Shown here: piece by piece, positions 2,530 through 30,275 of the stretch
How positions within the stretch are numbered: position 1 is the first letter of the stretch
Layout: every line of letters starts with the position of its first letter
Assembly (NCBI GenBank): GCA_003223295.1
Contig: QHYM01000120.1
Coordinates: forward strand, 1-35,354
Length of the DNA: 35,354 nucleotides
DNA from: Acidobacteriota bacterium
Lineage (GTDB): Bacteria; Acidobacteriota; Terriglobia; Acidiferrales; UBA7541
Direction: 5' to 3'
Translations under genes and position numbers: made by a program
The notes under the pieces: generated by a model
What the model saw: only the letters and a program-made list of their open reading frames with translations
Told to the model about the DNA's origin: nothing
Database searches by the model: none

Positions 2530-5500
2530 TCAATCGGAGTGCGCGGGGGAAGGGGCCGGAGCGGGCAAGTGGCCGTGAGCGCGCTTGCCCTGAATCCAGG
2601 TTTGCAAGCGATCCATGTAGATGTACACGACTGGGGTGGTGAACAGCGTGAGCATCTGGCTGAGGATGAGGCCGCCGACAATGGTGATGCCGAGAGGGCG
2701 GCGAAGTTCGGAGCCGACTCCGGCGCCAAGTGCCAGCGGCAAAGCGCCGAGCAGAGCAGCCATAGTGGTCATCAGAATGGGCCGGAAGCGAAGCAGGCAA
2801 GCCTTATAGATTGCGTCGACTGGAGATTTCGCTTCTTCCCTTTCCACCTGAACAGCAAAATCGATCATGAGGATGGCATTTTTCTTGACGATGCCGATCA
2901 GCAAAATGATGCCAATGAGCGCGATGATGTTCAGGTCGGACTTGATGAATTGAATGGCAAGCAGCGCGCCGATGCCGGCAGAAGGAATTGTGGAAAGAAT
3001 CGTAATCGGATGAATGAAACTCTCGTAGAGAATCCCGAGAACAATGTAGACAGCGGCCAGGGCGGCGAGAATCCAAACCGGCTGATCTTTGAGGGAATCC
3101 TGAAAGGCCTGCGCGGTTCCCTGAAACGTGGCGTGAACTGTGGACGGCACCTTGAGTTCGCGGCGTGCAGCTTCAATATGCTGGACGGCCGGGCCCAGCG
3201 AAGCGCCCGGAGCAAGATTAAACGAGAGGGTAATCGCGGGGAAGATTCCCTGGTGATTGACGGAAATGGCGGTGTTGGAGGGCTTGTAATGGGCAAAGGC
3301 GCTGAGCGGAACGAGTTTGCCGGACTTGGAAGGAACGTAGATGGATTTCAAAGCCTCCGGGGATTGCTGGAACTCGGGGGCGACTTCCAACACCACGTGA
3401 TATTGATTCAAACCTTTGTAGATATTGGAGACCTGGCGCTGACCAAAAGCGTCGCCTAAAGTGTTGTCGATATCTTGAACGGCGACGCCGAGGCGCGAAG
3501 CCGTGTCGCGATCGATGACCAGCGTGCTTTGAAGACCTTTCAATTGCTGGTCGGAATTGACATCGCGCAGCTCAGGAATCCTGCTGAGGCGCTGTTGCAA
3601 GATGGGCGCCCAATAGGTGAGATCGGAGAGGTTGTCGGCCTGTAATGTGTATTGGTATTGCGCCCCACCCATGCGCCCGCCCATGCTGAGGTCCTGAACC
3701 GCCTGCAGATACAACGCCGCACCTGGAATCTTGGCGGTTTTGGCACGGATGCGCGCGATGACCTGATCAACGCTAATTTTGCGCTCGCTGAGGGGCTTGA
3801 GCTGACCAAACATGCGGGCAGTGCTTCCCCCGCTGCCGCCGCCAGTGAAGGATGTGACGGTATCGACGGCAGGGTCCTGCAAAACAATTTCAGTGAACTG
3901 GCGCATCTTCTGGGACATGGCGGCAAAGGACAAGTCCTGGTCGCCCTGGATGAGCCCATTGAAGCGGCCGGTATCCTGCTGCGGGAAGAAGCCCTTCGGA
4001 GTATTCACAAAGAGATACGCATTCAGGCAAACCGTGCCGAGAGTGACCAAGAGAATGAGGAATTGATGGCGGAGAACCCAGCGTAAAGAAATATCGTAGG
4101 TTCGCAGAAGACGATTAAACGCACCTTCTGAGAAACGATAGAGGCGATTGTGCTGGCCGGTTTCGTGCCGAAGGAAGCGGGCGCACATCATGGGAGTGGT
4201 GGTCAACGATACGAACAGCGAAACGCCGATGGCCACACTCAGGACCACGGCGAATTCGCGAAAGAGGCGCCCCACGATTCCGCCCAGCATCAGGATGGGG
4301 ATAAAAACGGCGACAAGCGAAGTACTCATCGAGAGAACGGTGAAGCCGATTTCGCTGGCGCCCTTCATTGTTGCGGCGAACGGTTTCATGCCGCCTTCGA
4401 TGTGGCGCGCAATGTTTTCGATGACCACGATGGCATCGTCAACGACGAAGCCCGTGGAAATGGTGAGGGCCATGAGGGAGAGATTGTCGAGAGTATAGTG
4501 ACAGAGATACATCACGCCGAACGTGCCGATGAGGGAGAGGGGAACGGCCACGCTCGGGATGATGGTGGCCCATACGTTTCTGAGAAACGCAAAAACCACG
4601 AAGATGACCAGCACAATCGAAATCATGAGCGCGACTTCGACGTCGTGGACGGAAGCGCGAATGGTGGTGGTGCGATCAACGGCCACGGTGAGATGCAGCG
4701 ACGGAGAAATCGATGCGCGCAGAAAGGGGAGGAGGGCCATGACGCGGTCGACGGTCTCAATCATGTTGGCGCCAGGCTGCCGGAAGATGGCCATGAGGAC
4801 GCCAGGCTTGCCGCCGGAGAGGCCGAGATTGCGCGAATCCTCCACGGAGTCGACGACTTCCGCGATGTCGCGCAGACGGACGGGAGCGCCCTGATGGCCG
4901 GCGACAATCAAGGGCTCATATTCGTAGGCCTTGAAGAGCTGATCTGTGGCGGAGACCGTCCAGGCCTGCCGGGGATCCGCGAGTTCCCCTTTGGCTAGAT
5001 TGGCATTGGCGGACCGCAGGGAGTTGCGAATCTGCTCTAGGCTGATTCCGTAACTATTGAGCTGATGGGGATTGACCTCGACGCGAACAGCAGGGCGCGC
5101 GCTGCCCCAGGTGAACACCTGCCCGACACCTTCGACCTGTGCCAGTTTCTGCGCCAGGATGGAATCGGCGGCGTCATAAATCAGCGCGGGAGGAATATTG
5201 TCGGAGGTCAGCGAGAGCATCAGGATCGGAGAGTCGGCTGGATTAACCTTGCGATAGTTTGGCTGGCTGGGCATGTCCGCAGGGAGCTGGCTGCGAGCCG
5301 CGTTGATGGCAGCCTGAACGTCGCGCGCCGCGGCGTTGATGTCACGATTGAGATCGAATTGCAGAGTGATGCCGGTGTTGCCAAGGCCGCTCGAAGAAGT
5401 CATCTGCGTGACACCAGCGATGCGGCCAAACTGGCGTTCAAGGGGAGTGGCAACCGCGGACGCCATGGTTTCGGGACTTGCTCCGGGCAGACCCGCTCCG

Positions 5501-5655
5501 ACCGAGATGGTCGGAAAATCCACTTGAGGGAGCGGCGACACGGGCAAGAACCGGAACGCAACAACGCCGGAAAGCAAAATCGCGAAGGTGATCAGCGACG
5601 TGGCCACGGGCCGTCGGATAAAGGGCGCGGAGAAATTGGAAGAAAAATGCTGCAT
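2530..5655 (-). CDS. mdtC: HAE1-type RND efflux permease, MdtC-like
   Basis: This 1041-residue inner-membrane pump protein has the standard RND layout: TM1 at about 19-37 after RRPVATSLITF, a large periplasmic loop, TM2-TM6, a second loop and TM7-TM12. The proton-relay residues are present: D406-D407 in [15 protein letters not shown] (TM4) and K924 in [14 protein letters not shown] (TM10), matching AcrB D407/D408 and K940. RND permeases use proton import to drive drugs or other amphiphiles from the periplasm or outer leaflet into a tripartite channel. The ATG directly follows the TAG of the preceding RND gene (5656), so the two are translated as a pair, as in MdtB-MdtC, whose members form a heterotrimer. 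Substrates cannot be read from sequence. A 35-residue Pro/His-rich cytoplasmic tail (PAPAPSPAHSD end) closes the protein. Confidence 0.93.
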   Translation of the reverse strand: MQHFSSNFSAPFIRRPVATSLITFAILLSGVVAFRFLPVSPLPQVDFPTISVGAGLPGASPETMASAVATPLERQFGRIAGVTQMTSSSGLGNTGITLQFDLNRDINAAARDVQAAINAARSQLPADMPSQPNYRKVNPADSPILMLSLTSDNIPPALIYDAADSILAQKLAQVEGVGQVFTWGSARPAVRVEVNPHQLNSYGISLEQIRNSLRSANANLAKGELADPRQAWTVSATDQLFKAYEYEPLIVAGHQGAPVRLRDIAEVVDSVEDSRNLGLSGGKPGVLMAIFRQPGANMIETVDRVMALLPFLRASISPSLHLTVAVDRTTTIRASVHDVEVALMISIVLVIFVVFAFLRNVWATIIPSVAVPLSLIGTFGVMYLCHYTLDNLSLMALTISTGFVVDDAIVVIENIARHIEGGMKPFAATMKGASEIGFTVLSMSTSLVAVFIPILMLGGIVGRLFREFAVVLSVAIGVSLFVSLTTTPMMCARFLRHETGQHNRLYRFSEGAFNRLLRTYDISLRWVLRHQFLILLVTLGTVCLNAYLFVNTPKGFFPQQDTGRFNGLIQGDQDLSFAAMSQKMRQFTEIVLQDPAVDTVTSFTGGGSGGSTARMFGQLKPLSERKISVDQVIARIRAKTAKIPGAALYLQAVQDLSMGGRMGGAQYQYTLQADNLSDLTYWAPILQQRLSRIPELRDVNSDQQLKGLQSTLVIDRDTASRLGVAVQDIDNTLGDAFGQRQVSNIYKGLNQYHVVLEVAPEFQQSPEALKSIYVPSKSGKLVPLSAFAHYKPSNTAISVNHQGIFPAITLSFNLAPGASLGPAVQHIEAARRELKVPSTVHATFQGTAQAFQDSLKDQPVWILAALAAVYIVLGILYESFIHPITILSTIPSAGIGALLAIQFIKSDLNIIALIGIILLIGIVKKNAILMIDFAVQVEREEAKSPVDAIYKACLLRFRPILMTTMAALLGALPLALGAGVGSELRRPLGITIVGGLILSQMLTLFTTPVVYIYMDRLQTWIQGKRAHGHLPAPAPSPAHSD

Positions 5656-8600
5656 CTAGTCCCCGTGCGCGGGCTCTTCGATAGGATTACCAATTTGAAT
5701 TTGGAAGCGCCGCCCGAGCCAATCGAATGCCAGGTAGACCACCGGAGTGGTGTAAAGCGTTAGCAACTGGCTGAGAATCAAGCCGCCCACGATGGTAATG
5801 CCGAGTGGGCGGCGCAACTCGGATCCGACACCAGTTCCGAGCGCTAAAGGCAGGCCGCCAAGGAGCGCGGCCATGGTGGTCATCATGATCGGGCGGAAGC
5901 GAAGCAGGCACGCTTCATAGATGGCGTCGAGCGGCGACTTCCCTTCTTTGCGTTCAGCTTCGAGAGCAAAGTCGATCATCATGATGGCGTTTTTCTTGAC
6001 GATGCCGATGAGCAGGATGATGCCGATAAGCGCGACGACGCTGAATTCCGTGCGGCACAGCAAAAGCGCGAGAATTGCGCCAACGCCGGCGGAGGGAAGC
6101 GTCGAGAGAATCGTGATGGGATGAATGTAGCTTTCGTACAAAACACCGAGAACGATGTAGACGGTCACGAGAGCTGCAAGAATCAACAAAGGCTCATTGG
6201 ACAGGGACCGGAGGAAGGCAGCCGCGGTGCCTTGAAACGTGGCCTGGACGCTCGGCGGCATGTTCAAATCCTGCTTCACGCGATTGATGGCGTTGACCGC
6301 ATCGCCCAGAGCGGAGCTGGGCGCCAGGTTAAACGAAACAGTGACCACGGGAAACTGGCCCTGGTGGTTCAACGCGAGCGCAGTGGCGCCAGGATCGAAG
6401 TGCGTGAAAGAGCTGAGCGGGACCTGCGTGCCGTTGGAGGACCTGACGTAAATGTTTTTTAAAGAATCGGGATCCTGCTGAAACCGCGGATCGACTTCAA
6501 GGACCACGTGATACTGATTCAATTGCGTAAAGATCGTGGAGACCTGGCGCTGGCCAAAGGCGTCGTAGAGCGTGTTATCGATGTCGGCAGGGAGAATGCC
6601 CAAGCGCGCGGCCGTGTCGCGGTCAATCGTTAGGGAGGCGAGAAGGCCCTGATTCAACTGATCGCTGGCGACGTCTCGCAGCTCCGGGAGCGCCTTTAGT
6701 TTGTCAATGAAGCGAGGCGTCCAGTAAGCGAGTTCCTTGGAATCGGCATCTTCAAGGCTGTATTGGAATTGCGTGCGGCTGACACGGTCTTCCACGGTCA
6801 AATCCTGAACCGGCTGGAGAAAAAGGGAGATGCCATCGATTTTGGCAAGCTCCGGCTGGAGACGGCGGATCACGTCCGAAGCGCTGATTTTGCGATCGGC
6901 AAGCGGTTTGAGATTGATCTGGATGCGGCCGGTATTCAGCGTGGTGTTTGTGCCGTCAATGCCGATGAAAGAAGAGAGGCTTTCGACAGCGGGGTCCTTC
7001 AAAATGGTGCTCGCGAGCGCCTGCTGGCGCCGCGCCATGGCCGCAAACGAAACGTTCTGCGGGGCTTCGGAGACACCCAGAATCACGCCGGTGTCTTGAA
7101 CGGGAAAGAATCCTTTGGGGACATAGATGTAAAGAAGAATGGTGCCGACGAGGGTGGCAATCGTGACGATCAAAGTGGTGGTGCGATAGCGCAGCACGAA
7201 TTGGAGCGTACGGCCGTAAAAAGCGATCACGGCATTGAAGGCGTCTTCCGACTTGCGGTAAAACCAGCTTTCTTCCTCTTTTTTCTGATGGCGAAGAAGC
7301 TTGGCGCACATCATCGGCGTCAGGGTGAGCGAGACAAAGGCGGAAACCAGAATTGTGACCGCGAGGGTGACGGCAAATTCGCGGAAGAGGCGGCCAACGA
7401 TGTCGCCCATGAACAGCAAAGGAATGAGCACGGCAATCAGGGAGACAGTCAACGACACAATCGTGAAACCGATTTGTTCGGAGCCTTTCAGCGCCGCTTG
7501 CAAAGGCGAATCGCCTTCCTCGATATAGCGGCTGATGTTCTCGATCATGACGATGGCGTCGTCGACGACAAAGCCCGTAGAGATGGTAAGCGCCATGAGC
7601 GAAAGATTGTTGAGGCTGTAGCCCAGCAGATACATCACGCCGAACGTGCCAATCAGCGATAAGGGCACGGCAATACTGGGAATCACCGTCGCGCGGAAGC
7701 TGCGTAGGAAAAGGAAGATGACCATCACCACCAAGGCAACGGTGAGCACCAGGGTGAATTGCACGTCTTCCACGGAAGCGCGAATGGTGGTGGTGCGGTC
7801 AGTGAGGATATCAACCTGAACCGCAGCGGGAAGGGCCGCCTGGAGCTGCGGGAGAAGTTTCTTTACGCGGTCGACCACGGCAATGATGTTTGCGCCCGGC
7901 TGCCGCTGAATATTGAGAATGACGGCGGGATCTTGATTGGCCCACGCCGCTTGCTTGCCGTTTTCCACGCCGTCGATGACGTTCGCGACATCGCTGAGGC
8001 GGACCGGCGCGCCATTGCGGTAAGCGACGATGAGCGGGCGATAACCATCGCTCGAAAGCAACTGGTCGTTGGCGCCAATAGTAAACGCCTGATGCAAGCC
8101 GTCAAAAGTGCCTTTGGCCATGTCCACGTTGGCCTGGCCGAGAGCGGTGCGCAGGTCCTCAAGACTCAACCCGTAGGAAGCGAGCGCTGTGGGATTCGCC
8201 TGAATACGAACGGCGGGGCGTTGGCCGCCGCTGATGCTGACTAGCCCCACGCCGGAAAGCTGAGAAATTTTCTGGGCGAAGGTAGTGTCTGCCAAGTCTT
8301 CCACTTTGGAGAGCGGCAGACTGGGAGCGGAAAGCGCGAGCGTCAGGATGGGCGCGTCCGCCGGATTGGTTTTGCTGTAGATCGGCGGATTGGGGAGGCC
8401 CTGCGGCAAGAGGTTCGAGGCCCCGTTGATGGCCGCCTGAACTTCCTGCTCGGCGACGTCAATGTTGAGGTCCAACTCGAATTGCAGCGTGATGACAGAG
8501 CACCCGAAGGAGCTCGTGGAGGTCATCTGGTTCAGCCCGGGAATCTGGCCGAACTGGCGCTCGAGCGGTGCGGTGACCGAAGAGGCCATTACATCCGGGC

Positions 8601-8763
8601 TGCCACCGGGATAAAACGTTTGTACCTGAATCGTGGGGTAGTCAACCTGCGGCAGGGCGGAAACCGGCAACTGGCGATAGGCCACCCAGCCGACCAGTAC
8701 AACGCCCACCATGAGCAACGTGGTGGCAACCGGCCGCAGAATAAACGGCCGAGACGGACTCAT
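5656..8763 (-). CDS. mdtB: HAE1-type RND efflux permease, MdtB-like
   Basis: This 1035-residue RND permease is a paralogue of the next gene in the operon. It opens with [20 protein letters not shown] (TM1), carries D401-D402 in [15 protein letters not shown] (TM4) and K923 in [14 protein letters not shown] (TM10), so both permeases keep the full proton-relay set. Its start ATG at 8763 overlaps the adaptor stop as ATGA, and its stop abuts the ATG of the MdtC-like gene. One adaptor followed by two RND permeases is the arrangement of E. coli MdtABC and Pseudomonas MuxABC, which function as B2C heterotrimers. No outer-membrane factor is encoded in this operon; a channel from elsewhere, perhaps the one at 21023-22405, must serve it. 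Assignment to MdtB rather than another HAE1 subgroup rests on gene order and overall resemblance. Confidence 0.93.
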
Positions 8764-16499: not shown

Positions 16500-19400
16500 T
16501 TATTCGTGGGCAGCGGCGGCGCGCGGACGCAAGTAGAACTGGATCGCCGGAGTGAAGATCAGTGAAAGAACCATGGAGCTGAGCAAGCCGCCAATCACCG
16601 CGACCGCCAGCGGCTTGAGCATTTCGGAGCCGGAGCCAATGCCGAACGCCAACGGGGCCATGCCTGCAATCGTGGCAATCGCCGTCATCGCGATGGGGCG
16701 CAGGCGCCGGCGGCCTGCTTGAATCATGGCCTCTTCGGCGGCAAAACCAAGCTCGCGGAAATGATGCTCGGCGTCGAGAAGCAAAATGCCGTTTTTCGCA
16801 ACGATGCCGATGACCATGATCATGCCCATGAATGACGCCACGTTGAATGTCGTGCCCGTGACCAGCAGCGCCAGAAACCCTCCGAAGGTCGAGAGCAATG
16901 CCGAAGCCAGAATCGCCGTGGGCGCGGAGAAAGTGCGGAATTCGAACAGCAGAACAGCAAACAGCAACACGAGCGCAAGCAGGAAAACCATCAGCAGGTC
17001 GCGGAACGATTTCATTTGCTCCGCGTACGTCCCCCCGTACTCCACGCGAATGGAGGACGGCAGATGCAGACCATCAACTGCCTTTTTCACCGCGGCGATG
17101 CCGGAGCCCAGATCCACTCCTTCGAAGCGCCCTGTGATTTGCACGAGCCGTTGAAGATTCTCGCGGCGGATTTCGGTTTGGCCGGGGTCTAAGCTGACGC
17201 TTGCGAGAGAGCCAAGCGTCGCGGTGCGTCCGGTGGAACTGGTCAGCAACGTATCGCTCATGCGTTCCAAAGAAGTCCGATTCTGTTCCGGGAACCTAAC
17301 CCTGATGGTGTAGGCACGGTCATTCAGCACCACGGGAGTGGCGGCGGGTTCGCCTTCCAGAATTGCAGCCGCGTCCACTGAAACCTCTTCGGGCGTAAAG
17401 CCAGCACGCGCGGCCACCGTAGGATTAATCTGAAACGTGGTTGCTGGACCGCTGATGGTGTTTTCGATTCCGTTGAGCACATCCACGACACCATGAACGT
17501 TCTGTATCGCCTCCGCGACGCGCGGCGCGGCGCCGGCCAAGAGCTTGGGATCCGGGGAAAAGAGCCTGATGACGATGGGCTCCGGCTGGCTGGTAAGGTC
17601 GCCAATCATGTCCTGCAAAACCTGCACGAACTCGACTTTGGTGGCGGGCTCGGTCTGCTCAATCTCCTTTCGAATGTCATTCATGATTTCCTCAATGCCC
17701 CGCTTGCGATCGCGCTTGAGCTTCACGGTGAAATCGCCGCGATTCGCTTCGGTAACTGCGGACAACCCTAGCTCCAGGCCGGTGCGACGCGAAGTGTTCT
17801 CCACTTCGGGCTGAGACTTCACGATCTCTTCAATGTGCAGCAGAATACGATTGGATTCGGCAAGCGAGCTGCCGGACGGCGTCCAGTAATCGAGAATGAA
17901 GCCGCCCTCGTCCATTGCCGGAAGCAGGTCGGTTCCCAGGAAGTTGTAGCAGAGGTAGGAAGCCACAATAATCACACTCGAGCCGCCCAAGATCAGCACA
18001 GGCCGTTCGAGGACAGCGCCTAGAGCTTTTGCATAAAAGGTGACGATGCGGCCAAACAGTCCGGTGAACTGAGCCTCCTCGACCGCGAGCAGTGAAGCAA
18101 CATCCGTGCCGGAAGGTCGTTCGCCCGCGGCTCGCGGAGCTTCTTTGCGGCGCACAAGATACTGGCTCAGCGTCGGCGTCCAGGTAAGGGCGAGCAACAG
18201 CGAAGTGAAGAGCGAGACCGTCATGGTGACGGCCAGCGCGCGAAAGAAGGTCCCGGTTACGCCGGTGATGGAGATGAGCGGAAGAAAAACGACAATAGGC
18301 GTGATCGTGGAGCCGATCAGAGGAATAGTCATTTCCCGGAGCGCGCTCTGAATGGCTTCGACCCGCCCCTGGCCGGCGTCGCGATGCAGCACGATGTTTT
18401 CCAAGACCACGATAGCGTCGTCAATCACCAGGCCCACCGCAGCGGCGAGACCACCCAGCGTCATGAGATTAAAGCTCTCGCCTGCGAGCTTCAGCACAAT
18501 GAAGGTAATCAGCAGCGTGGCTGGAATGACCAGGCCAGCAACCAGTGAGGTACCCCAATCGCGAAGGAAAAGAACCAGGATGATGGAGGAGAGCAGCAGG
18601 CCGAGCAGCACCGCGTCGCGCACGCTGGCGATGGATTCGCGAACAATTGTGGATTGATCGTAGAACGGCTCGATGTGCACGCCCGGCGGCAGCGTGGGCC
18701 GAATAGCTTCTATTTGCGCGTGGACCAGGTTGGCTACGTCCAGCGTGTTGCCGTCCGGCTGGCGATTGACGTTGAGCAGGACCGCCGGCTTGCCGTTGGC
18801 AGTCACAATTGTGTAAACGGGCGCCACCGAGGGCGTGATTTTCGCAATATCGCCCAACCGGATGGGAACCTGCGACGACGAAGTTTTCACCACGATTTGC
18901 CCAATCTGTTCCGGCGTGCGCACCTGCCCGCTGACAAGGCCGAGCACCAATTTGTGCTCGTTCTCGATTAGTCCTGGGGAGTCGATCAGATTCGTCTTGC
19001 GAATCGCTTCAAGAATGTCGCTGACGGTGATTCCAGAAGCCAGCAGCCGCGCCGGATCCGGAGTCACCTGGAATTCCGGAACGCGCCCGCCTTGCACGAT
19101 AACGGAAGCAACGCCATCCAAACGGTTCACGCGCGGCTTGATGTCGTAGGTGGCGATTTCCCAGAGCTTGTCGGGGGGAACGGTGTCGGACGTCAAGCTG
19201 TAGCCGATGATGGGAAACACCGCGAATGTGAGCCGATGCGTTTGCACTTTGGCTGTGGGAGGCAGTTCGGCTTGCAGGCGCGCGACGACGGCGTCGACGC
19301 GCTGCAGCGTCAAAATCATGTCGCTGCTCCAGTCGAAGAAAAGATCGACCTCCGCGTCCCCACGGCTGGTGACCGACGTGACTTTTTGGAGGCCAGGGAC

Positions 19401-19670
19401 GCTGTTGACGGCTTCCTCGAGCGGCCTGGTGATAGTCACCAGCATTTGGTCAATCGGCATCACGCCGTTGTCTACGCCAATAACGATGCGCGGGAAATCC
19501 GTGTTGGGAAAAACCGCCACGGGAATACTGAAGGCGAGATACGCGCCAACCAGCGTGAGTGTCACTGTCAAGAACAGAATCGGGCGCGACAGCTTTTGGA
19601 ACCACGGTGCGGCTGGCTTCCGGGCATCGCTCTGCGCATCCGGCACTTCAGGCCGAAGCTCCATGGGCAT
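16500..19670 (-). CDS. RND efflux permease of the regulated tripartite pump
   Basis: This 1056-residue RND permease has TM1 at about 30-50 (PILFLTVTLTLVGAYLAFSIPV), two large periplasmic loops and twelve TM helices. D417-D418 in VGLVIDDAIVVLENI (TM4) and K959 in IGIVAKNGILLLDAEH (TM10) are the proton-relay residues. The DD pair is typical of HAE-type pumps; heavy-metal (CzcA/CusA) pumps usually have a single Asp in a VDGAVV context, so despite possible CusA/CzcA labels it is more likely a drug or amphiphile exporter. It is clearly divergent from the two permeases at 2530-8763, for example PVAVFPNTDFPRI in place of PVSxLPQVDxPTI after TM1. Its ATG follows the adaptor stop directly, and the adaptor's last codons supply its AAGGAG ribosome-binding site. 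Confidence 0.92.
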   Translation of the reverse strand: MPMELRPEVPDAQSDARKPAAPWFQKLSRPILFLTVTLTLVGAYLAFSIPVAVFPNTDFPRIVIGVDNGVMPIDQMLVTITRPLEEAVNSVPGLQKVTSVTSRGDAEVDLFFDWSSDMILTLQRVDAVVARLQAELPPTAKVQTHRLTFAVFPIIGYSLTSDTVPPDKLWEIATYDIKPRVNRLDGVASVIVQGGRVPEFQVTPDPARLLASGITVSDILEAIRKTNLIDSPGLIENEHKLVLGLVSGQVRTPEQIGQIVVKTSSSQVPIRLGDIAKITPSVAPVYTIVTANGKPAVLLNVNRQPDGNTLDVANLVHAQIEAIRPTLPPGVHIEPFYDQSTIVRESIASVRDAVLLGLLLSSIILVLFLRDWGTSLVAGLVIPATLLITFIVLKLAGESFNLMTLGGLAAAVGLVIDDAIVVLENIVLHRDAGQGRVEAIQSALREMTIPLIGSTITPIVVFLPLISITGVTGTFFRALAVTMTVSLFTSLLLALTWTPTLSQYLVRRKEAPRAAGERPSGTDVASLLAVEEAQFTGLFGRIVTFYAKALGAVLERPVLILGGSSVIIVASYLCYNFLGTDLLPAMDEGGFILDYWTPSGSSLAESNRILLHIEEIVKSQPEVENTSRRTGLELGLSAVTEANRGDFTVKLKRDRKRGIEEIMNDIRKEIEQTEPATKVEFVQVLQDMIGDLTSQPEPIVIRLFSPDPKLLAGAAPRVAEAIQNVHGVVDVLNGIENTISGPATTFQINPTVAARAGFTPEEVSVDAAAILEGEPAATPVVLNDRAYTIRVRFPEQNRTSLERMSDTLLTSSTGRTATLGSLASVSLDPGQTEIRRENLQRLVQITGRFEGVDLGSGIAAVKKAVDGLHLPSSIRVEYGGTYAEQMKSFRDLLMVFLLALVLLFAVLLFEFRTFSAPTAILASALLSTFGGFLALLVTGTTFNVASFMGMIMVIGIVAKNGILLLDAEHHFRELGFAAEEAMIQAGRRRLRPIAMTAIATIAGMAPLAFGIGSGSEMLKPLAVAVIGGLLSSMVLSLIFTPAIQFYLRPRAAAAHE

Positions 19671-29168: not shown

Positions 29169-29264
29169 GAACTCCGCACAACTTCTTACCAAATGTGATT
29201 TTCATGGTCTTAGTTGGTACTAGGAGTCATGAATTTGGTCGCCCCGTACCAGGCAAAAGGCGTC

Positions 29265-29292
29265 TTGACATCTTTATACATCGGTGCATTAT
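29265..29292 (+). promoter_or_regulatory. Sigma-70-like promoter of the 72-residue protein gene
   Basis: A perfect -35 TTGACA (29265-29270) is followed after 16 bp by CATTAT (29287-29292, four of six matches). Transcription would start near 29300, giving a leader of about 60 nt that contains the duplicated ribosome-binding site. Confidence 0.5.
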
Positions 29293-29322
29293 GAGCTTTA
29301 GGCCCAACCCGCCGGCTCCTAC

Positions 29323-29368
29323 CCCACAGGAAGCCAAACGTGAGTCCCACAGGAGGCCAAACATGAAC
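29323..29368 (+). repeat. Tandem 23-bp duplication of a ribosome-binding site and start codon
   Basis: Two contiguous copies lie at 29323-29345 and 29346-29368; 19 of 23 bases match. Both contain ACAGGAAG or ACAGGAGG, then CCAAAC, then GTGAG or ATGAA. Copy 1 thus offers AGGAAG plus GTG at 29340; copy 2 offers AGGAGG plus ATG at 29363. The GTG frame encodes eight residues (MSPTGGQT) and stops at TGA 29364-29366, overlapping the second ATG as ATGA. Confidence 0.6.
29351..29356 (+). promoter_or_regulatory. Ribosome-binding site of the 72-residue protein
   Basis: A perfect AGGAGG lies 6 nt before ATG 29363 and decides this start over the longer in-frame extension upstream, which has no ribosome-binding site and runs through the promoter. 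Confidence 0.75.
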
Positions 29369-29581
29369 GCCAAGATTCTGACGTTTTCATCACAGGGCGA
29401 TAGCACCATTCTTGAGTACGATCCCGCAACCGCCGACATGGACGAAGTGAACCGCGTGATTGCAGAATACGAAGCCAAGACCGGGGCGCAGCCCTTCGAC
29501 GTCGCGACCGGTGAACGCATCGACAAAGTGACACGCGCGCAGAATGAAGTCTTGATGGTCCACCCCATCGCGGGCGGCTAG
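29363..29581 (+). CDS. Small acidic protein of unknown function (72 aa)
   Basis: The 72-residue protein is acidic and soluble-looking, with no signal peptide or membrane segment. I do not recognise the family. Its sequence suggests a beta-hairpin start (AKILTFSSQGDSTILEYDP), a helix (DMDEVNRVIAEYEAKTG), then PFDVATGERIDKV and a conserved-looking end VLMVHPIAGG. The fold may be a small binding or adaptor module, such as a phage- or plasmid-type accessory protein, but that is a guess. A strong promoter and a perfect ribosome-binding site suggest real, possibly high expression. It lies between the helicase and another unknown gene and has no evident link to either. Confidence 0.7.
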   Translation: MNAKILTFSSQGDSTILEYDPATADMDEVNRVIAEYEAKTGAQPFDVATGERIDKVTRAQNEVLMVHPIAGG

Positions 29582-29693: not shown

Positions 29694-30275
29694 ATGGCTT
29701 CCACAATCCTATCCGCCGCCGTGGTCCTCACTCTGCTGATTGGGGTCCTCGCATTGCTCAGGTGGAGGCTTTTGCTTTTTAGCTTTCGGCGGAGGGCCTT
29801 GGCTCGAGCCGGCGCACCGCAAGGGCAAGCAAACCAAGCCTTCTCCTACGGCCTGCATGCCCTTAGCCCTGGGGGCCTGTCACTGTTCGGAGGCAATGCA
29901 TCCGGCAATAGCCTGCATGTGCCACGCGTCACCAGGGAGCAGCGCGCGGAAGCTTTTCTACAGCGCATACTCGCCCTCACCGGGGCAAAGAAGATGGATA
30001 GCGCGTATGTCCTGAATGTGGGCAGGGTGCAATTTCAACTTCGCGACCGATTCATTCGGCGGCTGCAGAATCCTGACGATCCGAAATCCCCGTACGAAGA
30101 AACTTGCTTTTATCTGGTGCACAACGGCATGCCTAAAGTCGAGGAAATTGCTACGGCGCTGCTACACCTCTCCAACAATCCTTCGCTGTTTGATAAGTGG
30201 GCTCTTCAGAATGGAGTGGCCTTCAAGGCGGACGGCAAGGTGTTCGACCGCTGCCCGCTGATCGGCCTGCGCTGA
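29694..30275 (+). CDS. Hypothetical protein with an N-terminal membrane anchor
   Basis: The 193-residue protein has one N-terminal hydrophobic helix (about 4-22) followed by an Arg-rich stretch (RWRLLLFSFRRRALARAG), so the bulk is predicted to remain cytoplasmic. A Gly/Ser/Asn-rich linker (about 50-75) precedes a mixed charged domain (about 78-193) with YVLNVGRVQFQLRDRFIRRLQNP and CFYLVHNGMPKVEEIATALLHLSNNPSLFDKW motifs. I do not recognise the family. No clear ribosome-binding site precedes the ATG. It follows the 72-residue gene by 112 bp on the same strand and is tail-to-tail with the inositol oxygenase gene (54 bp). Reading frame length and amino-acid composition make it a credible gene. 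Confidence 0.65.
   Translation: MASTILSAAVVLTLLIGVLALLRWRLLLFSFRRRALARAGAPQGQANQAFSYGLHALSPGGLSLFGGNASGNSLHVPRVTREQRAEAFLQRILALTGAKKMDSAYVLNVGRVQFQLRDRFIRRLQNPDDPKSPYEETCFYLVHNGMPKVEEIATALLHLSNNPSLFDKWALQNGVAFKADGKVFDRCPLIGLR

Follow-up and report, generated by a model that had tools for sequence, protein, structure and literature searches.

The most important feature of this DNA is the gene that lies behind a duplicated start region, not the leader that the duplication appears to create. The window, by which we mean the whole stretch of 35,354 nucleotides analysed, comes from an Acidobacteriota bacterium (GCA_003223295.1, contig QHYM01000120.1, positions 1 to 35,354). The gene, on the forward strand at 29363-29581, encodes a 72-residue protein that ends in HPIAGG, and its homologues, its fold model and this Gly-Gly end suggest that it is a ubiquitin-like protein. 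With a probability of roughly one half, we read it as the first of the two or three genes of an accessory cassette, probably derived from phages, that combines a ubiquitin-like Gly-Gly protein with a cysteine-bearing partner. The comparisons show its gene order, the co-occurrence of its genes, conserved ends and residues, a promoter and a clade-specific hairpin; the beta-grasp fold of the first gene product is a model prediction.

In the proposed mechanism, the repeat and the short open reading frame (ORF) in it would belong to the promoter and leader region of the cassette. Gene 1 would produce the 72-residue protein, predicted to adopt a beta-grasp fold with a free Gly-Gly tail, and gene 2 a soluble domain with an invariant cysteine, in most copies behind a membrane-type N-terminal helix. 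Gene 3, present in many copies, would supply the same domain as gene 2 without the helix. The ubiquitin-like protein may then be held by the cysteine domain or handed on to it, in most cases at the membrane. The cassette, which is carried by soil bacteria and two phages, could thus be a protein-tagging or protein-binding system that has not yet been described. The initial annotation had seen a well-promoted gene of no recognised family, coupled to a leader peptide through what might be a recent duplication. The promoter and the lack of a family hold up, and the coupling and the recent duplication do not. Overlooked were the terminal Gly-Gly, the prediction of a ubiquitin-like fold, the partner gene and the copies in phages.

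Gene order and distribution of the cassette

We compared 16 copies of the gene, namely those of the window, L020-L032 and the phage contigs L035 and L036. Relative to the window, 12 relatives together have 59 substitutions at first, 40 at second and 311 at third codon positions, a pattern which indicates that the gene is real and evolving as a protein. Gly-Gly is followed directly by the stop codon in 14 of 14 complete copies, a count that leaves out L030, which meets a contig end, and the broken copy L032. Wherever downstream DNA is available (15 of 15 copies; L030 is cut), a gene for the partner domain follows. In the window, this partner is a protein of 193 residues (29694-30275, forward strand) with an N-terminal hydrophobic helix (model residues 3-39) and a soluble domain (29928-30251, forward strand), to which the model assigns the order alpha-beta5-alpha-alpha-beta2. 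The first partner gene has a hydrophobic N-terminus (19-residue mean over 1.6) in 13 of 15 cases; L033 and the phage copy L035 have no clear membrane segment. A second domain of the partner family then follows in L025-L029, L031, L033 and the phage copy L036. In the phage copy L035 there is one short partner form that overlaps the stop of the Gly-Gly gene, and L032 has the soluble form only.

Cys138 of the partner (codon at 30105-30107) is invariant in all 24 rows of the domain alignment, paralogues included. It could be a catalytic residue, although none of the histidines in the same 24 rows is invariant. Searches with the partner fold gave no convincing match, and Foldseek returned nothing useful. 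An assignment of the partner as an E2 enzyme (UBC fold) is not supported, as E2 structures reach just Z 2.2-2.7 and stand among unrelated folds. In PADLOC, the phage form of the partner has just a weak homing-endonuclease match (E 0.023), which we ignored.

Of the 36 genomes of the genus, 10 encode the 72-residue family, and these 10 and no others encode the partner family. When 396 genomes were sampled evenly across the phylum, two matched the 72-residue protein, the window's own and L019, the latter a chance match inside a frame of 353 residues. The partner family is present in at least 1 of these 396 genomes (the window's own), a lower bound because at most 12 first-look candidates per genome were scored. 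A scan of genome contigs found 15 loci; 14 belong to metagenome-assembled genomes of Acidobacteria and one to Salipiger; the Acidobacteria loci come from 'gp2' isolates, one '13_2_20CM' and 'Candidatus Acidiferrum typicum'. The Salipiger locus (L034) was dropped together with L018 and L019, all three being short matches in unrelated long frames. They are still included in the raw search counts, where L018 is the third match of genome G019.

Two phage contigs from IMG/VR, L035 and L036, encode the protein at 49 and 51% identity, respectively. In their cassettes, at 5965-6602 of L035 and 5989-7056 of L036, one or two partner genes come after the Gly-Gly gene. Nearby, no more than a few kb away, lie genes for a RecE-like exonuclease, RecT and an excisionase in L035, and for a RecE-like exonuclease, an integrase and an endolysin in L036. 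Further viral scans with the phage proteins returned only L035 and L036 again. The window's 72-residue protein and its partner had no match in phage or plasmid records, and neither the L035 form of the Gly-Gly protein nor the window DNA matched phage records.

On the chromosome, the pair sits between genes for an Lhr helicase and a myo-inositol oxygenase (named by Pfam in the window) both in the window and in L020-L024. The neighbours differ at the other loci: immediately upstream of the L027 copy is a transposase-type integrase gene, and in L025 a repressor-type gene with HTH and peptidase S24 domains (391-1266) lies 0.6 kb upstream of the chromosomal cassette. Ten flank genes of the other loci, searched with Pfam, are ordinary or belong to no known family, and there is no E2 among them. 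The genome RYN_23 has at least three cassettes (L028, L029, L030 and L033), with two on one contig in opposite orientation, one of them cut by the contig end, and a further partner pair stands at the edge of its contig C93. A single gene, split by a contig joint, probably accounts for both L030 and L033. One decayed copy is found in L032 (3800-4380), where the Gly-Gly gene goes out of frame near codon 52 but the soluble partner domain has kept its open frame. The phage genes and the varied neighbours suggest that the cassette was mobile and linked to phages in origin and later settled at a single site in one clade. We found no paper on this family in the literature within reach, which excluded most subscription papers and all preprints.

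The cassette carries no obvious activating enzyme of its own. In the ten genomes with a cassette, all ThiF matches (E up to 1e-5) and all Prok-JAB matches (E up to 1e-3) are on contigs other than those of the cassette, and the phage records L035 and L036, which may be fragments, contain no ThiF match. Every one of the 36 genomes of the genus has ThiF-family genes, 33 of the 36 have Prok-JAB genes, and all 31 that were searched for ThiS-family genes have those, so that all three families are near-universal and do not track the cassette. Because no ThiF/MoeB-type gene was found with the cassette, we propose that its Gly-Gly tail is activated, if at all, by housekeeping enzymes of this type; the presence of ThiF genes throughout the genus, with or without the cassette, means that such an enzyme could serve it.

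The same observations bear on the strongest alternative, a lesser though real possibility, in which the protein has the ubiquitin-like fold and is never attached to anything. It would instead be a small binding protein, such as an inhibitor, antitoxin or decoy, whose Gly-Gly tail docks in the partner or in an E1-like enzyme of the host. The cassette contigs without ThiF or JAB matches, the two phage records without ThiF and the pairing with a single partner family are all consistent with this. What speaks for attachment is that the Gly-Gly is exactly terminal in every complete copy, as C-terminal activation requires, although tight docking could explain this too. The cassette reading can also be taken further, to a phage-borne and bacterially domesticated ubiquitin-like system that has no dedicated E1. 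Its protein would be charged by a host enzyme of the ThiF/MoeB type and transferred to the cysteine of the membrane partner, for tagging or gating at the membrane that might, for example, keep out other phages; in this detailed form, we consider the proposal doubtful.

The predicted fold and known ubiquitin-like systems

Profile searches place the 72-residue protein in no established family. The initial annotation had made the same statement and proposed a sensitive profile search as a check, and this search gives nothing over the cut-off in Pfam or NCBIfam and no convincing match in PHROGs or PADLOC. Below the cut-off, NeqB_N matches 11 of 15 members weakly (best E 0.0065) and Plasmid_RAQPRD matches 3 of 15. 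Among PDB sequences, there is no match below E 0.3.

The best AlphaFold2 (AF2) model has a pLDDT of 85.3 and a pTM of 0.71, and the remaining four have mean pLDDT values of 72.6-78.4; the input alignment was shallow (15 sequences). In the best model, strands at residues 3-9, 12-19, 43-46 and 62-66 and a helix at 26-40 are arranged in the order bb-a-b-b and are followed by a tail. The 50 best Foldseek matches to the PDB are nearly all ubiquitin, SUMO, ISG15, NEDD8 and other ubiquitin-like domains, with probabilities of up to 0.99, a best E of 7.8e-3 and TM scores of about 0.5; none reaches E 0.001. Proteins named ubiquitin are among the top matches to viral structures in BFVD as well. The best VIA match is UFM1 (Z 5.8, rmsd 3.8 over 68 residues), and of 995 chains, 5 have a Z of at least 5 and none a Z of 8, where a Z below 8 may reflect just a common arrangement. 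The prediction thus gives the beta-grasp order, and the free C-terminal Gly-Gly is present in the sequences themselves. Taken together, the model and the searches make it likely, short of proof, that the protein is a new small ubiquitin-like (beta-grasp) fold. That the fold is mispredicted, and that the genes form a different kind of small accessory system linked to phages, we judge unlikely: the 15-sequence alignment is shallow and the scores are modest, but ubiquitin-like domains head the PDB list and ubiquitin-named proteins rank high in the viral list (both searched with one and the same model), and the Gly-Gly end, which as such adds nothing to a fold score, is an independent feature that fits.

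Bacterial and phage ubiquitin-like proteins described so far are, as far as the accessible text of the cited sources goes, sulfur carriers, tail-assembly proteins or members of operons with E1, E2 and JAB genes. ThiS and MoaD have the ubiquitin fold and a Gly-Gly end and are activated by ThiF and MoeB (PMC12355090; PMC11354881). BilABCD combines a two-domain ubiquitin-like protein, BilA, with an E1, an E2 and a JAB peptidase (PMC11354881). TAPI is a phage ubiquitin-like protein of tail-assembly clusters with JAB/NlpC neighbours (PMC1779556).

The cassette protein resembles ThiS and MoaD in being a small predicted beta-grasp protein with a C-terminal Gly-Gly (PMC11354881; PMC12355090; PMC1779556). 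In contrast to them, as they appear in the available portions of these papers, it has no PF02597 match and no ThiF-family gene on its contig in the ten genomes, and it is paired with a cysteine-domain partner that usually bears a membrane-type helix. With BilABCD, it shares the placement of a bacterial ubiquitin-like protein in an accessory cassette and a second component that bears a cysteine. Unlike the two-domain BilA with its operon of E1, E2 and JAB genes, however, it has a single domain, and the cassette contigs of the ten genomes hold no ThiF- or JAB-family gene. As in TAPI, a phage-borne ubiquitin-like domain has a conserved C-terminal glycine. TAPI is found with tail genes and with a JAB/NlpC protein, and it contains an additional domain, whereas the cassette protein is a single domain without a convincing PHROGs match, and RecE-like and excisionase or integrase genes lie no more than a few kb from its gene. 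Measured against what the accessible parts of these sources describe, the cassette fits none of the three systems. If the cassette reading is true, a minimal Gly-Gly protein and a cysteine-domain partner, shared by phages and bacteria and with no ThiF-type enzyme found beside them, would form a different arrangement, and one that is easily testable.

The resemblance to ThiS and MoaD raises the alternative of a sulfur carrier for some pathway, which we regard as quite improbable. An hhalign comparison with ThiS/MoaD of the genus covers the last 19 columns only, in register at the Gly-Gly (E 0.0015, Prob 16.6), and this register and the ThiF-family genes in every genome of the genus are what such a carrier would have in its favour. 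Against it, the Pfam scans gave no match to ThiS (PF02597) in any of the 15 members at E up to 1, the flank genes scanned (a part of the total) include no sulfur or cofactor gene beside the cassette, and the 31 genomes searched already have 3-6 ThiS-family matches each.

Promoter, leader hairpin and start region

The leader begins with a -35 box, TTGACA, at 29265-29270 and a -10-like element, CATTAT, at 29287-29292 (CAATAT in 11 relatives), both on the forward strand with 16 nt between them. The pattern TTGACA-N16-CA[AT]TAT occurs in 12 of the 16 copies, with a spacer of 16 bases throughout, which supports the good promoter that the initial annotation had proposed from the perfect -35 box. It is missing from L029, the broken copy L032 and the phage copies L035 and L036. 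A perfect 8-bp hairpin is found at 5946-5966 of L036, just upstream of the phage Gly-Gly gene, where the preceding frame ends. The cassette at 5448-6001 of L029, where the conserved promoter is lacking, has its start 43 bases past the end of another frame, and an ORF of 14-15 codons joins that preceding frame to the Gly-Gly gene through ATGA and TAATG overlaps.

Pairing in relatives reveals a leader hairpin (29314-29335, forward strand) with its 5' arm at 29314-29320, its loop at 29321-29327 and its 3' arm at 29328-29335. The window form has one bulged A, from a lost base, and the hairpins of L020-L024 have 7-8 continuous pairs. Three pairs are altered on both sides (G-C/A-U, C-G/U-A and C-G/G-C) among six sequences of one clade, L025 being left out since its stem differs. 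The arms of these six were aligned by hand because a MAFFT alignment misplaced them and a second alignment was no better. Local folding gave z values of -3.26, -4.18, -2.85, -1.89 and -4.01 for L020-L024, -2.10 for L025 and -1.64 for the window. No hairpin is present in L026, L027, L028, L030 or L031 (local z -0.17 to 1.21), that is, in 5 of the 12 promoter-bearing copies. When the whole leader is folded, only L021 clearly beats its shuffles (z -2.73); the other promoter-bearing copies lie between -1.72 and 1.02. The hand alignment leans towards a structure kept by compensatory changes in the window's clade, and the hairpin is thus a clade feature. Its role may be to leave the single Shine-Dalgarno site accessible or to shield the 5' end of the mRNA.

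Other RNA structures found less support. A common fold of all 12 leaders has 5 pairs, -0.67 kcal/mol and 0 two-sided changes. A switch in which the 5' arm of the hairpin pairs with the Shine-Dalgarno site is not claimed because the pairing energies are not beyond those of shuffles in most of the 16 copies: between 11 and 253 of 300 shuffles are as low, with the lowest counts in L024 (11), L031 (33) and L027 (42). For an outer pairing, GGGAC...GTCCC, both arms are present in 9 of the 12 promoter-bearing copies and both are gone in L021 and L025; where present, the arms are invariant, and the pairing therefore gains no support. A search of Rfam 15 found nothing at the gathering score anywhere in the window (0 hits) and, for 29230-29400, nothing even at E up to 5 (0 hits), and a scan of the window found no tRNA.

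The tandem repeat itself was correctly described: its two 23-base units, at 29321-29343 and 29344-29366 (forward strand), are identical at 19 of 23 positions. The first unit is largely the loop and 3' arm of the hairpin, and the second holds the real ribosome-binding site. There is no other tandem pair of period 18-40 as identical in the 35,354 bases of the window. The repeat exceeds chance, though not hugely for the whole window, since a comparable tandem pair in this range of periods arose in 3 of 60 dinucleotide shuffles and none of period 23 did (0 of 60). On an 18-base measure, the window has 16 of 18 identical at spacing 23. L026, L027 and L031, whose proteins are 79-85% identical to the window's, have the repeat at spacing 25 (14, 15 and 15 of 18 identical; in each case none of 200 shuffles did as well). 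Fainter traces (11-12 of 18) occur in L021, L025, L028 and L030, and the leader comparison shows no repeat in L020, L022, L023 or L024. The repeat is old, being shared by distant copies, and a recent duplication, which had been suggested, is not supported because L026, L027 and L031 have it at spacing 25 and not 23. The window's genome has no other copy of the leader apart from one 16-base chance match.

The ORF VSPTGGQT (29340-29366, forward strand) has likewise been described accurately, with its GTG at 29340, its stop TGA at 29364-29366 and an overlap as ATGA with the ATG at 29363. Translational coupling by a leader peptide is a general mechanism, and the window resembles it in this overlap of a short upstream ORF with the start. 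The resemblance ends when the upstream regions of the homologues are aligned, a check that the initial annotation had itself named: the ORF occurs in 1 of 16 copies, the window's, and is missing from the other 15. All 16 copies open with ATGA, so that a stop in the frame of the window's ORF comes free and the overlap is not special. In L021, which has one of the leaders closest to the window's, ATG-TAA stands where the window has the GTG ORF. When out-of-frame ORFs of up to 20 codons that reach the start are counted, 11 of the 16 copies have none. The others include L028 and L030, paralogues of one genome, with a different ORF of 11 codons in another frame, L029 with one of 14-15 codons ending in TAATG, and the broken copy L032 with one of 20 codons from TTG. 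A tandem start unit whose leader peptide couples or tunes translation is therefore the least probable reading, although its geometry is exact in the window, AGGA precedes GTG 29340, and L028, L029, L030 and L032 each have some short ORF over the start, because the eight-codon ORF stands in one copy, most copies have no such ORF, and the peptides and their lengths differ, the paralogues L028 and L030 aside.

In the preferred reading, translation would begin at 29363 from one strong Shine-Dalgarno site (AGGAGG, 29351-29356, forward strand), of which CAGGAG is invariant across 12 aligned leaders, and the eight-codon ORF is probably incidental. The frame of the gene is open further 5' in the window, with a first start at 29195 and an in-frame ATG at 29292. 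In-frame stops lie just 6, 7 and 5 codons upstream of the start in L021, L023 and L036, respectively, so the open frame 5' of 29363 is not needed, and the relatives' sequences support the start at 29363. A striking start-site duplication can, then, be mostly the sequence of a hairpin and not a leader gene.

Elsewhere in the window, 2530-8763 and 16500-19670 hold three ORFs of 1035-1056 residues, two of them adjacent, which are mutually related by BLAST and have, by eye, the look of RND-type transporters.
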